Source of the DNA: Aequorivita aquimaris
GTDB lineage: Bacteria; Bacteroidota; Bacteroidia; Flavobacteriales; Flavobacteriaceae
Direction of reading: 5' to 3'
NCBI RefSeq assembly: GCF_001573155.1
Contig: NZ_JRWG01000003.1
Location: forward strand, 186,001 to 250,000
Length of the DNA stretch: 64,000 nt
A program made the position numbers and the translations under genes. The notes under the pieces were generated by a model. That model searched no databases. It was not told where the DNA came from and worked only from the letters and a program-made list of their open reading frames with translations. Positions 1,815 through 56,844 of this stretch are shown here, in pieces. Positions within the stretch are counted from its first letter, which is position 1, and each line of letters starts with the position of its first letter.

Positions 1815-3011
1815 TTATTTCAAAAATTCATAAACCCCCGCAGCACCTTGTCCGGTACCAACACACATTGTCACCATTCCGTATTTTCCTTGTAGGTTTC
1901 GCTTGCGCATTTCATCAAAAAGTTGCACGGAAAGTTTTGCGCCAGTACAGCCCAATGGGTGTCCCAATGCGATTGCGCCTCCATTTACATTTACTTTTTC
2001 TTTATCCAAACCAAGTTCACGGATTACGGCCAAAGATTGTGAGGCAAAGGCTTCGTTTAATTCTATGAGTTCCATTTGGTCCTGCTTCAATCCAGCTTGT
2101 TTTAAAGCCTTTGGAATTGCGTAAACCGGACCAATTCCCATAATGCTGGGCTCTACGCCAACAGCTGCAAAGCTTACCAATCTGGCAATCGGCTCAAGAT
2201 TTAGTTCCTTTACCATTTCCTCGCTCATAATAACGGCAAAGGCAGCACCGTCGCTCATTTGTGAGGAATTACCTGCGGTAACACTTCCGCCTTGTGCAAA
2301 AACGGGGCGAAGTTTAGAAAGCGCTTCAATGTTTGTTCCTTTTCGTGGGCCTTCGTCTTTATTAACTGTGTATTTTTCAGTTACTTTTTTGCCTGAATCG
2401 TTTACGAAAGTGTGCTCTACTTCAATAGGCACAATTTGATCCTGAAAACGATTTTCATCCTGCGCTTTTAATGCACGCATTTGACTTGTGTAAGCAAACT
2501 CATCTTGGTCCTCACGGGAAACGTTGTATTTTTTGGCAACTGCTTCCGCAGTCAATCCCATATTCCAGTAATAATCTTCGTGGCCTTCTTTTGCCAATTT
2601 ATAATCTGGAACAGGTTTGTAACCACCCATTGGAATGTAACTCATACTTTCAGCACCTCCTGCAATGATGCAATCTGCCATTCCTGTTTGGATTTTGGCC
2701 GCAGCAATTGAAATGGTTTCCAGGCCAGAAGCGCAATAACGGTTAACCGTCATTCCGGGAATGTCCACTATATCCAACCCCATTAACGAGATCAATCTAC
2801 CCATATTGAGGCCTTGCTCGGCTTCGGGCATGGCATTACCCACGATTACGTCATCAATTCGTTTTTTGTCGAGTTGCGGCAATTCGTTCATTAGATATTT
2901 AATGGTTTCCGCGGCCAGTTCATCCGGTCTTTTAAAACGGAAAACTCCGCGAGGCGCTTTGCCCACTGCGGTTCTGTATGCTTTTACTATATATGCGGTT
3001 CTTTGTTTCAT
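1815..3011 (-). CDS. fadA: Acetyl-CoA C-acyltransferase (3-ketoacyl-CoA thiolase)
   Basis: This thiolase cleaves 3-ketoacyl-CoA with CoA to give acetyl-CoA and a shortened acyl-CoA, the last step of the beta-oxidation cycle. The 398 residues match the usual length. The acyl-accepting cysteine is C93 in NRYCASGLE. The second active-site loop [10 protein letters not shown] has H351, and the C-terminal [10 protein letters not shown] has the proton-relay C383, so all catalytic residues are present. It sits between the hydroxyacyl dehydrogenase/hydratase gene (89 bp upstream) and the acyl-CoA dehydrogenase (23 bp downstream), all on the minus strand, consistent with one degradative operon. A biosynthetic acetoacetyl-CoA thiolase role is possible, but the neighbours argue for degradation. 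Confidence 0.95.
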
Positions 3012-3100
3012 AATTTGTTTTTTTAGAGAAGAGAGTAGAGAATAAAGAAAATAGATCTGTAGCTTCTCTGTTCTTTTATCTCTGTTCTTTATTCTTTTTT

Positions 3101-5509
3101 CTAATTTCTCAAAGGTTTCCCTTTCTGTATCATATGTTGAAGTCTTTCCAAAGTTTTTCGTTCCCCCGTCAAACTTAGGAATGCTTCTCTTTCAAGATCA
3201 AGCAAATATTGTTCGCTTACGTAGCTTGCTTCACTTAAATCGCCTCCCGCCATTACATAAGCGAGTTTATTCGCAATTTTTTTATCGTGTTCGCTAATGT
3301 AGTTTCCGGCCACCATTTGGTCGGTTCCCACTAAAAACATTCCCAAAGCTTGTTTTCCAAGTACTTTTACATCGGTTCGAGGAATTGGTTTCGTATAACT
3401 TTGATCAGCCATAAAACGCGCAACGGCTTTTGCCGCAGCTATCTGTCTTGCTTCGTTTACAATTACAATATCCTTTCCTTTTTGAAGAATTCCGGTATCA
3501 TAAGCCTCATAAGCAGAAGTGGAGACCTTCGCCATTCCGATGGTCAAGAAATAGTCCTGTAGCCTGTTCAATTCCACATCATCTTTTTTGAAAGTATCGC
3601 TGGCGCGCATTGCCATTTCCTTGGAGCCTCCACCGCCGGGAATTACCCCAACACCAAATTCAACCAACCCAATGTAGCTTTCGGCTGCAGCCACAACGCG
3701 GTCTGCGTGAAGTGTAAATTCACAACCACCGCCCAAAGTCATTCCGCGAGGGGCTACCACAACTGGGATAGAGGAGTAGCGAAGACGCATACTGGTATCT
3801 TGAAAATATTTTACCGCAGCGTTCAATTCTTCATATTCCTGTTCTACCGCCATCATAAAAATCATCCCAATATTGGCGCCAACAGAGAAGTTTTTTCCTT
3901 GATTGGCAATTACCAAACCGTCAAAACTAGCTTCTGCCAAATCAATCGCTTTATTTACACCAGCCAAAACATCACCACCAATACTGTTCATTTTGCTTCG
4001 GAATTCCACATTTAGAATACCATCGCCCAAATCTTCAACCACTACATCTTTATTGCTCCATACTTCCTTGGATTTTCGGATGTTGTCCAAAATGATAAAG
4101 GAATCCTGTCCGGGTATTTTTTTATGTGTTTTGTCTGGAATGCTATAATAATAGGTGTTTCCATCTCGAACATCGTAAAAACTATCCACGCCACTCTCAA
4201 GCATTTCAGTTACCCAAGCTGCCGGTTCCTTCCCTAAATCCTTAATTAGTTCAATTCCCTTTTTTACGCCAATGGCATCCCAAATTTCGAAGGGGCCATT
4301 TTCCCAGCCAAAACCTGCTTTCATTGCGTCATCAATCTTATAAAGCTCGTCGGTTATTTCGGGAATTCGTTTTGAAACGTAAGCGAACATCGCCCCGAAG
4401 TTTTTTCGATAGAATTCGCCAGCCTTGTCTTCACCTTTTATAAGAATTGGGAAACGGTCGGAAACTTTGTCAACCGATTTTGTTTTTTCCAAAGTGCCGA
4501 AAGATGCTTTTTTACTTTTTCGGTATTCCATTGAATCGAGGTCGAGCGATAGGATTTCACTGCTGCCGTCATCATTTTTCACTTTTTTGTAAAAACCTTG
4601 TCCGCTTTTGCTTCCCAACCATTTGTTTTCCATCATCGTATCGATGAAGCCGGGAATTTGGAAGATACCGTGTTCCTCGTCATCGGGAACGTTATCGTAA
4701 ATTCCTTTTGAAACGTGCACCAAAGTATCCAACCCTACAACATCAACAGTACGGAAGGTTGCTGATTTTGGGCGGCCGATTACGGGGCCGGTCAATTTAT
4801 CCACTTCCTCAATAGTCAGTCCCATTTCCTTCACTTGGTGAAAAAGGCTTTGTATACCGAAGATTCCGATTCTATTTCCTATAAATGCAGGAGTATCTTT
4901 TGCGACCACGGAGGTTTTTCCGAGGAATTTTTCGCCGTATTCATTTAAAAACTCCAAAACTTCGGGAGAGGTTTTTGGACCGGGAATGATTTCAAAAAGT
5001 TTTAGATAGCGGGGCGGATTGAAAAAGTGCGTGCCGCAGAAGTGTTTCTGAAAATCCTCGCTATGGCCTTCACTCATTAAATGGATTGGAATTCCGGAGG
5101 TGTTTGTGGTAATGAGCGTGCCTTCTTTTCTGTGTTTTGCAAGGTTTTCAAAGACTTGTTTTTTAATATCCAAACGTTCTACCACAACTTCAATAATCCA
5201 ATCAGCAGTTTTCACTTTTGAAATATCATCTTCCAAATTTCCGGTGGAGATTCGTTTTGCAAAATCCTTGTGATAGAGTGGGGCAGGGTTGCTTTTTATG
5301 GCTTTTTGCAAATCGTCGTTTACAATTCGGTTTCGCACCACTTTGTCTTCAAGGGTAAGCCCTTTTTTCTTTTCGGCATCATTAAGCTCACGCGGAACAA
5401 TATCGAGCAATAGCACTTCCACGCCAATATTGGCGCAATGGCAGGCTATACCGCTTCCCATAATTCCGGAACCGATTACCGCTACTTTGTTAATTCTTCT
5501 TTTTGACAT
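3101..5509 (-). CDS. fadB: 3-hydroxyacyl-CoA dehydrogenase / enoyl-CoA hydratase fusion
   Basis: This bifunctional beta-oxidation enzyme (802 residues) hydrates enoyl-CoA and oxidises the resulting 3-hydroxyacyl-CoA with NAD. The N-terminus carries the Rossmann motif VIGSGIMGSGIA (residues 10-21), followed by the C-terminal domain of the dehydrogenase with GTHFFNPPRY. The crotonase domain comes last: the oxyanion region MTLGGGCEF and the segment GLVEFGVGVIPGGGG keep the glutamates expected for hydration. This order, dehydrogenase first and hydratase last, is the reverse of Escherichia coli FadB and is common in Bacteroidota. It follows the MarR regulator by 84 bp and precedes thiolase, so it is probably co-transcribed with both. 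Confidence 0.95.
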   Translation of the reverse strand: MSKRRINKVAVIGSGIMGSGIACHCANIGVEVLLLDIVPRELNDAEKKKGLTLEDKVVRNRIVNDDLQKAIKSNPAPLYHKDFAKRISTGNLEDDISKVKTADWIIEVVVERLDIKKQVFENLAKHRKEGTLITTNTSGIPIHLMSEGHSEDFQKHFCGTHFFNPPRYLKLFEIIPGPKTSPEVLEFLNEYGEKFLGKTSVVAKDTPAFIGNRIGIFGIQSLFHQVKEMGLTIEEVDKLTGPVIGRPKSATFRTVDVVGLDTLVHVSKGIYDNVPDDEEHGIFQIPGFIDTMMENKWLGSKSGQGFYKKVKNDDGSSEILSLDLDSMEYRKSKKASFGTLEKTKSVDKVSDRFPILIKGEDKAGEFYRKNFGAMFAYVSKRIPEITDELYKIDDAMKAGFGWENGPFEIWDAIGVKKGIELIKDLGKEPAAWVTEMLESGVDSFYDVRDGNTYYYSIPDKTHKKIPGQDSFIILDNIRKSKEVWSNKDVVVEDLGDGILNVEFRSKMNSIGGDVLAGVNKAIDLAEASFDGLVIANQGKNFSVGANIGMIFMMAVEQEYEELNAAVKYFQDTSMRLRYSSIPVVVAPRGMTLGGGCEFTLHADRVVAAAESYIGLVEFGVGVIPGGGGSKEMAMRASDTFKKDDVELNRLQDYFLTIGMAKVSTSAYEAYDTGILQKGKDIVIVNEARQIAAAKAVARFMADQSYTKPIPRTDVKVLGKQALGMFLVGTDQMVAGNYISEHDKKIANKLAYVMAGGDLSEASYVSEQYLLDLEREAFLSLTGERKTLERLQHMIQKGKPLRN

Positions 5510-47827: not shown

Positions 47828-48169
47828 CTATAAAATATCCAGCACTCTCTCGGGAGGTCTGCCCACAACGGCGTGCGTGCCCTTTATGGCTATGGGCCGT
47901 TCAATCAATTTCGGATGTTGAATCATGGCATCTATAACCTCTTCATTGGTGAGATTCTTCCCTTTGTAATTTTCCCTCCAATCAGGTTCCTGCGTCCTTA
48001 CAAGTTTGATTGGGTCTATGCCCAAAAGTTCTATAACTTGCTTCAACTCTTGGTGCGTGGGCGGGTTTTCAAGATATTTTACAATTTCAATGGTTTCGCC
48101 TTCTTCTTCCAAAAGTTGAAGAGCTTGGCGCGATTTGCTGCAGCGGGGATTGTGGTAGAGGGTCGTCAT
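47828..48169 (-). CDS. ArsC/Spx-type arsenate reductase (glutaredoxin-dependent) family
   Basis: This 113-residue thioredoxin-fold protein of the ArsC family has the catalytic cysteine C10 in HNPRCSKSRQAL, the classical motif of glutaredoxin-coupled arsenate reductase, and the Arg-rich ERPIAIKGTHAVVGRPPE near the end (about 90-107), which in ArsC holds the oxyanion arginine. It would reduce arsenate to arsenite. Related YffB-like proteins share the fold, but the CSKSR active site favours ArsC. No other ars gene is nearby. It lies 16 bp downstream of a 159-residue unknown gene on the same strand. Confidence 0.88.
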   Translation of the reverse strand: MTTLYHNPRCSKSRQALQLLEEEGETIEIVKYLENPPTHQELKQVIELLGIDPIKLVRTQEPDWRENYKGKNLTNEEVIDAMIQHPKLIERPIAIKGTHAVVGRPPERVLDIL

Positions 48170-48185
48170 ATTTTATAATAAAATT

Positions 48186-48665
48186 TTACTTTTTTGATAA
48201 TTCTTCCAGTTCCAATTTATAGTCATATTGCAAATCTTCGTGCAGGGTTTCTACTTTTTTTGAAATATAATCTATCTGCCGGTTGTATAAATTGGTAAGG
48301 GTAGTATTTCGATTTATGGATGGTTTGAAGTTTTTCAACTTTTCACAAAAATAGAGCAAAAGTTCCACTTCGGTCTCTTTGTTTTGCGAATAGCGAATGA
48401 ATTTTTTAAGCTCCCTCAAAATTTTCCGGACGCTCTTTTTTATGTAGAAAAATGTTTTGGTATTTATAGTTTCAAAATCTGTATCAACCTTGGCTTTTAC
48501 GCTTTGGATGAACGTTTCCTCACCTGCAGATTCAAACAAAAGATAGGTGAGTAGCTCCTTATTTTCCTTTTTGAATTTTGCAAGGCGAAGGCAAAGCTCC
48601 AGCAATTCCTGGGTGGAGCGGTGGTTTAGTTCGGTTTTTATTTCTTTGAGCGATGCAGCCTTCAT
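48186..48665 (-). CDS. Hypothetical protein (159 aa), helical
   Basis: An unknown cytosolic protein, 159 residues, highly charged and helix-rich, without signal peptide. The recurring pattern of leucines and lysines (LLELCLRLAKFKKENKELL; KSVRKILRELKKFIRYSQNK; YISKKVETLHEDLQYDYKLE) suggests stacked helices or a coiled coil at the C-terminus. I recognise no family. It is probably co-transcribed with the ArsC-like gene, 16 bp downstream. Divergent from the outer membrane operon starting at 48818; a short palindrome between them could regulate either direction. Confidence 0.75.
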   Translation of the reverse strand: MKAASLKEIKTELNHRSTQELLELCLRLAKFKKENKELLTYLLFESAGEETFIQSVKAKVDTDFETINTKTFFYIKKSVRKILRELKKFIRYSQNKETEVELLLYFCEKLKNFKPSINRNTTLTNLYNRQIDYISKKVETLHEDLQYDYKLELEELSKK

Positions 48666-55379: not shown

Positions 55380-55550
55380 ATGCTTCATTGGAAAGCTATA
55401 TACATTATACTAACAATAGTCTTCGCAGTTGTGGGTTTTATCGGGATTGGTGATGGCGGGCTTGAACCTGCAAAATATATTTCTGGAATTTTTCTACTTT
55501 TGCTTTTGGCTTTTTGGGCAACCGATTTTCTGGGAAGGCGTAAAAGTTAA
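55380..55550 (+). CDS. DUF1328 (YtjA-like) small membrane protein, 56 aa
   Basis: This 56-residue two-helix inner membrane protein matches the YtjA/DUF1328 pattern: MLHWKAIYIILTIVFAVVGF, a Gly-rich turn (GIGDGG), ISGIFLLLLLAFWATDFLG and a terminal GRRKS as in the family's GRRK ending. Function is unknown; relatives are induced by envelope or osmotic stress. It lies about 100 bp past the outer membrane operon. Length equals the family norm (about 54-60). It is followed by the orphan TPP riboswitch, which has its own probable promoter; no relation between the two is evident. Confidence 0.78.
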   Translation: MLHWKAIYIILTIVFAVVGFIGIGDGGLEPAKYISGIFLLLLLAFWATDFLGRRKS

Positions 55551-55587: not shown

Positions 55588-55595
55588 TAACTTTA
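55588..55595 (+). promoter_or_regulatory. Putative -7 element of the TPP riboswitch RNA
   Basis: TAACTTTA (TAnnTTTG with the last base changed) with TTTG at 55569-55572 upstream (15-bp spacer). It would place the transcription start near 55602, exactly at the base of stem P1. Confidence 0.4.
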
Positions 55596-55602
55596 CAAGA
55601 CT

Positions 55603-55690
55603 ATCATATCGGGGTGCTTAAGTTTTAAAAACAGCTGAGAATATACCCGCAAAACTTCGAAACGGATAATGCCAGCAGAAGGAATATGAT
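55603..55690 (+). ncRNA. TPP riboswitch (thi-box), orphan
   Basis: The conserved parts of the thiamine pyrophosphate aptamer appear in order: P1 left ATCATAT (55603-55609), CGGGGTGC (55610-55617), the variable stem, GCTGAGA (55634-55640), TACCCG (55644-55649), CGGATAATGCCAGC (55663-55676), GAAGGAA (55678-55684) and P1 right ATATGAT (55684-55690), the exact complement of P1 left. TPP riboswitches normally sit before thiamine synthesis or transport genes. Here an intrinsic terminator starts 4 bp after the aptamer, and the next gene, prfB, runs on the opposite strand. It does not lead into any plus-strand gene for over 1.2 kb. Confidence 0.92.
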
Positions 55691-55693
55691 TTG

Positions 55694-55738
55694 CAAAGGG
55701 AACGAAGATTTGTTCAAATCTTGTTCCCTTTGTTTTTT
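55694..55738 (+). terminator. Intrinsic terminator directly after the TPP aptamer
   Basis: Arms 55694-55711 and 55715-55731 pair over 17 bp with one bulged G, and a run of six T (55733-55738) follows on the plus strand. The hairpin does not overlap the aptamer, so I see no switch between terminator and antiterminator. The T-run overlaps the prfB stop codon. Confidence 0.9.
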
Positions 55739-56844
55739 AAAGCTCATCACTTTTCTCCTTCTGCCCAGTCATCATCAAATACGCCTTTAAAAACTCGTCA
55801 ATCTCACCGTCCAGCATTGCATCTGTATTTCCGGTTTCGTGGCCTGTACGTACATCTTTTACAAGTTTGTATGGGTGTAACACATAGTTGCGTATTTGCG
55901 AGCCCCATTCTATGGCAAGTTTGTTGTCCTCAATTTCGGCACGCTGTGCCATTTGCTTACGAAGTTCAATTTCATACAATTGCGATTTGAGCATCTGCAT
56001 CGCTTTTTCGCGGTTGTCCAACTGGCTTCGTGTTTCGCTGTTGTGAATAACAATACCGGAAGGGTGGTGGGTAAGTATGGCTTTTGTTTCTACCTTGTTT
56101 ACATTCTGGCCGCCAGCACCGCTACTGCGGGCAAATTCCCAGGAAATATCGGCTGGGTTTATTTCAATTTCAATGGTATCATCAACCAATGGGTAAACAT
56201 ACACACTAGCAAAACTTGTATGTCGCTTTGCGTTGCTATCAAAAGGAGAAATACGCACCAAGCGGTGTACGCCGTTTTCGCTTTTTAGCCAGCCAAAAGC
56301 ATATTCGCCTTCAATTTCCAGCGTTACGGTCTTTACGCCCGCCACATCGCCGGCCTGAAAGTTGAGTTCCTTTACTTTAAAATTGTTTTTTTGGGCCCAC
56401 ATAAGGTACATGCGCATAAGCATTTGTGCCCAATCGCAGCTTTCGGTTCCGCCGGCGCCCGCGGTAATCTGTAGTACAGCGCTCATGTCGTCGCCTTCTT
56501 CGCCCAGCATATTGCGGAACTCCAAATCTTCAATTGCAGATTCAGCCTTTTCAAAGGCCACATCTACATTTTCAGGTTTTCCTTCGCCGTCTTTGTAAAA
56601 TTCAAGTAGAATTTCAGCTTCTTCGGTAAGTGTTTTTGCGGTTTCGTAATCGGTAACCCATTTTTTTTTGGTACGTAGCACTTTCATAAAAGCTTCTGCT
56701 TCCTGCGGATTGTTCCAAAAGTTGGGGTCAAAGGTTTTTTCTTCGTCGTTTGTAATCTCTATGCTTTTTCCGGCAATGTCAAAGATAGCGCCTTAAGGCA
56801 TCTAACCGCACCTTAAGGTCTTTGATTTGGTCTGTTGTAGTCAT
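55737..56844 (-). CDS. prfB: Peptide chain release factor 2, programmed +1 frameshift
   Basis: RF2 ends translation at UAA and UGA. Reading from ATG 56844, frame one gives 21 codons (ending LRRYL) and then the in-frame UGA of CTT-TGA-C at 56784-56778. A +1 shift continues at GAC (56780-56778) and the main frame to the stop at 55737, making 368 residues, the usual RF2 length. The stop-recognition motif SPF lies in VRISPFDSNAKRHTSF, and the catalytic GGQ in SSGAGGQNVNKVETKA. RF2 shortage slows reading of UGA and favours the shift, a known autoregulatory loop. A TATTTTTG promoter element precedes it. It is convergent with the orphan TPP riboswitch, whose terminator touches its stop codon. Confidence 0.95.

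Follow-up and report, generated by a model that had tools for sequence, protein, structure and literature searches.

What does a TPP aptamer do when no gene follows it? The window, a 64,000-nt stretch of the Aequorivita aquimaris genome (contig NZ_JRWG01000003.1), carries such an aptamer within 55588-55738, closed by its own terminator and facing the convergent release factor gene prfB. The initial annotation offered three meanings for it: the remnant of a lost thi gene, a stand-alone thiamine pyrophosphate-sensing RNA, or, on read-through, a thiamine-dependent antisense RNA to prfB. We found the aptamer to be real, in its coordinates and its anatomy, and the stand-alone sensing RNA to be the best fit among the three. 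On balance we favor a small RNA gene in its own right in the Flavobacteriaceae, whose product would act in trans and probably senses TPP. The basis, by comparison of sequences, is architecture, covariation, purifying selection, a promoter motif, the terminator, and independence from neighboring genes; transcription, ligand binding, and trans action of the stand-alone RNA we infer.

Anatomy of the unit in the window

A covariance search of a 701-base stretch returned a full-length RF00059 match (model positions 1-105 of 105) at 55600-55700 on the plus strand, with 47.9 bits and an E value of 3e-8. This score lies under the Rfam gathering score of 54.3, and a standard Rfam scan of the window therefore lists nothing here. 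Two covariance models of our own, R1 built from Aequorivita units and the broader R2, match 55600-55740 end to end, the window copy being in both training sets. The features are as follows.

55380..55550, +, 56-aa ORF, the upstream neighbor, which also precedes the unit at most of the Aequorivita loci examined and has no Pfam match
55588..55595, +, -7 promoter box TAACTTTA of the TAnnTTTA type, read in the sequence
55600..55738, +, predicted stand-alone RNA of ~139 nt, from box, aptamer, and terminator
55600..55700, +, TPP aptamer match (RF00059), 47.9 bits, under the gathering score
55603..55609, +, P1 5' strand (model match, fold, covariation)
55610..55613, +, P2 5' strand, CGGG (alignment and covariation)
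55616..55618, +, P3 5' strand, GCU (alignment and covariation)
55633..55635, +, P3 3' strand, AGC (alignment and covariation)
55636..55640, +, UGAGA pyrimidine-binding T-loop (motif count; role as given in PMC3764141)
55646..55649, +, P2 3' strand, CCCG (alignment and covariation)
55655..55658, +, P4 5' strand, CUUC (alignment and covariation)
55664..55665, +, P5 5' strand, GG (alignment and covariation)
55672..55673, +, P5 3' strand, CC (alignment and covariation)
55678..55681, +, P4 3' strand, GAAG (alignment and covariation)
55684..55690, +, P1 3' strand (model match, fold, covariation)
55694..55738, +, intrinsic terminator, stem CAAAGGGAAC...GUUCCCUUUG (55694-55732) and T-run (sequence, fold, covariation)
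55737..56844, -, convergent prfB (release factor 2) with +1 frameshift, a neighbor outside the unit (ORF 55737-56687, Pfam PCRF and RF-1)

Much of the first description holds. P1 is indeed a perfect 7-bp helix, 55603-55609 with 55684-55690, and the T-run at 55733-55738 overlaps the stop codon of prfB (TTA on the plus strand, 55737-55739). A terminator does follow P1, its stem at 55694-55732 leaving a gap of 3 nt, not the 4 first given. The statement that all conserved aptamer blocks are present stands except at two places: P5 has only two G-C pairs, and the pyrophosphate/metal site reads C60, C77, A78, so that G60 and G78 are absent. These three positions were assigned by E. coli thiM numbering, with a mapping that we take to be correct. 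G60, C77, and G78 are important at this site of the E. coli thiM aptamer, according to PMC3764141.

Folding of the 139-nt unit gives -36.5 kcal/mol, with a z of -3.33 relative to shuffled sequences; taken by itself, the aptamer is no more stable than its shuffles (z 0.20). According to PMC9723704, the flavobacterial promoter consensus is TAnnTTTG at -12 to -5, and because the box spans these positions the start is predicted at 55600. Comparison thus supports the proposal of a self-contained RNA with a predicted start at the base of P1, at ~139 nt where ~137 had been given. Opposite the unit, prfB starts at 56844 and requires a +1 frameshift to join the 55737-56687 frame, the upstream frame having been read by eye. 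The window holds at 56770-56844 a CUUUGAC, which we take to be the classical +1 frameshift motif of prfB.

Conservation and distribution

Checking related genomes for conservation of the aptamer, we found the unit intact in 21 of 28 Aequorivita genomes; all 28 have prfB. Two more genomes carry degraded copies, with a damaged aptamer core in G018 (91.6 bits with R2) and the 3' half only in G014. G013 and G019 retain a terminator remnant only, and G009, G026, and G027 have no trace of the unit beside prfB. An RF00059 search of these seven genomes gave no match except a TonB-type leader in G019. Lost or decayed in 7/28 genomes, the unit is therefore dispensable. It also stands apart from prfB in several genomes: other minus-strand genes separate the two in G003, G005, and G017, the last with an additional terminator remnant beside prfB, and by coordinates a gap of ~1 kb lies between them in G025. 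The unit thus does not depend on prfB.

The 21 Aequorivita units align with a mean column identity of 89%, and the mean pairwise identity of the RNA is 87%. For the flanks, the corresponding value is 52% over the 45 nt upstream and 26% over the 40 nt downstream, and the fourfold sites of prfB reach 43% (15 full-length sequences recovered, 20 tried). Judged by this comparison, the unit is under purifying selection in Aequorivita. Two of the 21 (in G021 and G001) reach the RF00059 gathering score. Separately, in one Aequorivita locus (L021 of G010, 496-1444) the prfB match is split, one part covering residues 1-25 and the other 51-316, which suggests that the gene has an internal deletion or frameshift or was wrongly assembled.

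Run on 84,980 named species genomes, a degenerate aptamer pattern matched 23 stretches: 14 in Aequorivita, one in 'Flavobacteriaceae bacterium UBA3591', and eight in Formosa, Arcticiflavibacter, Thermobacterium, Ulvibacter (2), Marixanthomonas, Pukyongia, and Luteirhabdus, these eight with the aptamer-terminator unit at loci other than that of Aequorivita. R1 and R2 were then run on 397 Flavobacteriaceae genomes, and R2 at E ≤ 1e-8 matched 40 of them. On reading the loci we removed five: G140, G236, and G406, canonical leaders before receptor genes; G272, where a gene follows; and G080 (L156), with a canonical-looking aptamer, its own terminator, and a convergent gene downstream. The unit is thus in 35/397 genomes (three of them Aequorivita) and 25 of 237 sampled genera, counts that rest on the two models and on reading of loci; in most genera sampled it was not found. 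Since only the best eight candidates per genome were scored, under strict filters, 35 is probably a lower bound. G258 and G314 have two copies each.

Members of a clade have the unit at the same locus, which changes from one clade to another. In other genera, prfB adjoins the unit again in L127 and L134 and is the second gene downstream in L132. Beyond the family, 395 genomes of the order and 296 of the phylum (overlapping samples) gave no match above 63.5 bits outside Flavobacteriaceae. Of the 38 new loci from these samples we examined 35; one, L153, was an already-known unit, L177 had no aptamer in its slice, and the others, besides L156 and L185, look canonical, with a gene close behind. 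L185 (G851, from another Bacteroidota family) has a TPP aptamer with its own P1 running directly into a T-run and a convergent ORF downstream, and may represent another type of stand-alone TPP RNA. Five genomes of its family have two to three R2 matches each; the others have one.

Standard scans largely pass the unit over: 6 of 20 unit loci from other genera reached the RF00059 gathering score and 14 were missed, and at gathering score Rfam named no other RNA at the unit in these 20. In the window, 7 kb upstream of the unit (47828-48665), lie an ORF that we take to be ArsC-like and a 159-aa neighbor. G350, G150, and G127 have similar pairs directly upstream of the unit, a hint of a shared ancestral neighborhood.

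For structural comparison we assembled 60 distinct units: 21 from Aequorivita, 34 from the family search, and five named loci, leaving out the degraded copies of G014 and G018 and three named loci identical to counted ones. Aligned with R2, 97.8% of helix cells are paired, and 24 of the 31 pairs, counting those of the terminator, show double changes (7/7 in P1, 6/10 in the terminator stem). Double-change cells number 200, compared with 43.2 ± 5.6 after shuffling and 20-40 for slid controls; fitting the alignment to R2 favors structure, and the training set of R2 included most of the 60 units. An earlier 46-row alignment had 134 such cells against 30.7. MAFFT on Aequorivita alone gave three pairs with double changes, the divergence there being too low for a test. 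Within these bounds, the P1-P5 TPP-type architecture is supported by covariation.

The terminator hairpin is conserved as CAAAGGGAA/UUCCCUUUG, with CAAAGGGAA exact in 43/60 units and a mean energy of -19.6 kcal/mol. The T-loop reads CTGAGA in 58 units and CTGA[A/G]A in all 60. The four lowest R2 scores, 65.0-84.3 bits, belong to L193-L195 and L200, which have a looser aptamer core. One locus dropped earlier, L197 of G272 (3001-3160, 68.1 bits), combines a GGGGAAUA...UAUUCCCC terminator with a TPP-like aptamer and has a Major-royal-jelly/SMP-30-like gene ~150 nt from the aptamer start. As a gene follows this pair, a cis form of the unit may exist.

Ligand and switching

With the TPP riboswitch (RF00059) the units share the two-arm P1-P5 fold and, in most, the GGGGUGC, CUGAGA, ACCC, and UAAU blocks. 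P4 in contrast is mostly CUU(C)/(G)AAG where the riboswitch has CCU(G)/AGG, and the positions of the pyrophosphate/metal site vary. The P4 5' strand with position 60 reads CTTC in 32 units, CTTG in eight, CTTA in five, and CTTT in three; four have other sequences and eight were uncaught by the pattern. Most of the 60, like the window copy, lack G60 and G78, and TPP binding is therefore not assured.

A functional stand-alone RNA whose aptamer no longer senses TPP, binding a thiamine-related ligand that lacks the pyrophosphate or serving as a scaffold only, is accordingly worth weighing, and we rate it as rather unlikely. It would explain why the pyrimidine side is conserved (CTGA[A/G]A in 60/60) while positions 60 and 78 vary, and it agrees with the retention of G60, C77, and G78 in all six thi-operon aptamers that the pattern recovered from nine loci tried. 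However, the 20 TonB-type leaders of carrier genomes (L204-L223), cis riboswitches by position, also lack CG at 77-78 in every case, 17 of them being of the CCU[A/G]GAACAG-GUAAUG-CUGUUUAGG type. The 77-78 change is thus common in flavobacterial cis leaders and does not require a new ligand, which weakens an altered ligand as the explanation of the 60/78 changes. TPP remains the likeliest ligand of the stand-alone RNA.

Besides the unit, the window genome carries an ordinary TPP riboswitch at G000:C10:10035-10198 (32.2 bits), followed by a 726-aa ORF that reads as TonB-dependent receptor-like. PMC7366714 places three putative TPP riboswitches of Bacteroides thetaiotaomicron in 5' UTRs.

The observation that classical switching is not seen also holds. 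In the 60 units no antiterminator was detectable: pairing of terminator arms with the aptamer was no better than in shuffles (mean z 0.02, one unit below -2; the test had no positive control). An antiterminator picked by eye in the window, CAAAACUUCG against CGAAGAUUUG, is missing from several relatives and was set aside on this ground and on the duplex result.

Gene context and mode of action

Gene context was taken from a simple ORF caller (at least 90 aa, unit-overlapping ORFs left out), which overlooks short genes, the 56-aa ORF among them. The downstream neighbor is convergent in 49/60 units and on the same strand, 160-635 nt away, in 11. In none of the 60 does a plus-strand ORF of at least 90 aa start within 160 nt of the end of the unit (L197 of G272 having been dropped beforehand), in agreement with the initial statement that no gene follows. 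By contrast, 15 canonical TPP loci are, by reading, immediately followed by receptor, thiS/thiC, or transporter genes. Upstream, the neighbor lies on the same strand in 43 units, is divergent in 15, and is out of reach in two.

These neighbors bear on a cis attenuator, in which low TPP would allow read-through and so yield a transcript antisense to the convergent gene, prfB in the window. In Listeria a riboswitch is known to control an antisense RNA (Mellin 2013, as cited in PMC8383071), and both the 49 convergent neighbors and the place of prfB beside the unit in most Aequorivita and again in L127 and L134 suit this reading. It is nonetheless improbable: the terminator is separate from the aptamer with no antiterminator above shuffles, 11 units lack a convergent neighbor, and the neighbor varies between lineages and even inside Aequorivita. 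The thiamine-dependent prfB antisense proposed for the window is not supported, in particular given the genes between unit and prfB in G003, G005, and G017, and the different neighbor genes in most other genera.

An origin in the 3' UTR or 3' end of the upstream gene has a slim chance. The upstream gene runs in the same direction in 43/58 units, several of them 53-67 nt away, and in the window the 56-aa ORF ends ~50 nt upstream; against this, the divergent upstream gene in 15/58 units excludes a 3' UTR in those, and in G003, where the contig ends 369 bases ahead of the unit, no 56-aa ORF was found over that length. The promoter box also speaks against it, a TAnnTTT box standing at the start of 56/60 units. 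It reads TAnnTTTA in 53, TAnnTTT followed by T or C in three, and never TAnnTTTG; four units have none. TAnnTTT[A/G] occurs in 44 of 420 control windows. Canonical TonB-type TPP leaders, taken from 20 of the 35 carriers, have TAnnTTTG in 20/20. Of the -7/-33 promoter pair first proposed, the -7 box is thus conserved and the -33 element is not evident, a TTG standing at about the right distance in 15 of 56 boxed units.

A riboswitch remnant after loss of a thi gene would fit the lack of a following gene and of a ThiC match in the window's genome, yet purifying selection, covariation, the 0/60 units with a plus-strand ORF close behind, and visible decay confined to the few genomes losing the unit make it very improbable.

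Having a predicted start of its own, an aptamer, its own stop, no cis target, and no detectable antiterminator, the unit is best read as a free trans-acting RNA. RNA polymerase would start at the base of P1 from the TAnnTTTA promoter, the nascent RNA would adopt the TPP-type aptamer fold, and the strong terminator a few bases past P1 would release an RNA of ~130-146 nt, with no competing structure detected. This RNA would have no cis gene to switch; most likely, the ligand (probably TPP or a close thiamine compound) would alter its shape, stability, or accessibility, and it would then act in trans on another RNA or on a protein. We give about an even chance to a wider reading: a class of free TPP-type aptamer RNAs that has left the 5' leader, has its own promoter and terminator, reports thiamine in trans, spans at least 25 genera, and is separate from the cis TPP riboswitches of the same genomes.

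Among known systems, the TPP riboswitch differs in being followed by a gene; in the unit the terminator is separate, no alternative pairing is detectable, and the promoter is TAnnTTTA. Riboswitches are generally cis-acting. Trans-acting riboswitch RNAs are described as rare (PMC7266159), with SreA, Rli55, and EutX as examples (PMC8383071), and the trans-acting cases in these two reviews arise from switched leaders or transcripts. SreA/SreB of Listeria, SAM riboswitch transcripts that act in trans as the unit is predicted to do, likewise are aptamer-terminator RNAs (PMC8383071); SreA, though, is the terminated leader of a gene with switched termination, whereas the unit has no gene and no switch was detected. 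Rli55 and EutX, B12-riboswitch small RNAs that sequester EutV, also join a metabolite aptamer to their own small RNA (same source); in those systems the riboswitch determines the RNA that is produced, and this RNA binds EutV, while the unit adds only a conserved terminator hairpin. Flavo-1 (RF01705) is a Bacteroidetes structured RNA that PMC2864571, as we take its column to mean, does not mark as cis-regulatory; it had no match at gathering score in the window or the 20 unit loci. PMC2211319 mentions a single metagenomic TPP riboswitch that no ORF follows. The open-licence PMC papers searched, a portion of what is in print, gave no description of this stand-alone TPP-aptamer RNA.

From promoter, fold, and terminator, the unit is a predicted discrete small RNA with a metabolite aptamer. 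If this is right, a widely conserved free-standing TPP aptamer gene would make a metabolite aptamer the sensor of a true small RNA, and would offer a testable route to vitamin B1 coordination in carriers that mostly lack ThiC. ThiC is in 3/35 carriers versus 11/35 genomes without the unit, a control set biased in that 19 of its 35 genomes were picked from weaker unit-model matches, some of them thi-operon riboswitches (L165, L175); among the 16 chosen otherwise ThiC is in three. We claim no association of the unit with thiamine synthesis.

As a candidate target we considered the TonB-receptor TPP leader, whose AAAGGGG and CCCCUUUU might pair in trans with the terminator stem CAAAGGG/CCCUUUG. 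The idea is unsupported because stem variants (GAGAA, GGAAA, and UGGGA types) lack matching changes in the leaders, as compared by eye in 20 carrier-genome leaders, some only partly covered. The stem half-site CAAAGGGAAC has 12 sites in its own genome versus nine for a reversed control pattern, an uninformative difference. The TonB-type leaders themselves (L204, L214-L216, and others) end in a conserved CCCCUUUUAUUCG...CGAAUG element; within them, CCCCUUUU is able to pair with the aptamer AAAGGGG, and AUUCG with the start-codon region, which suggests a putative translational expression platform.
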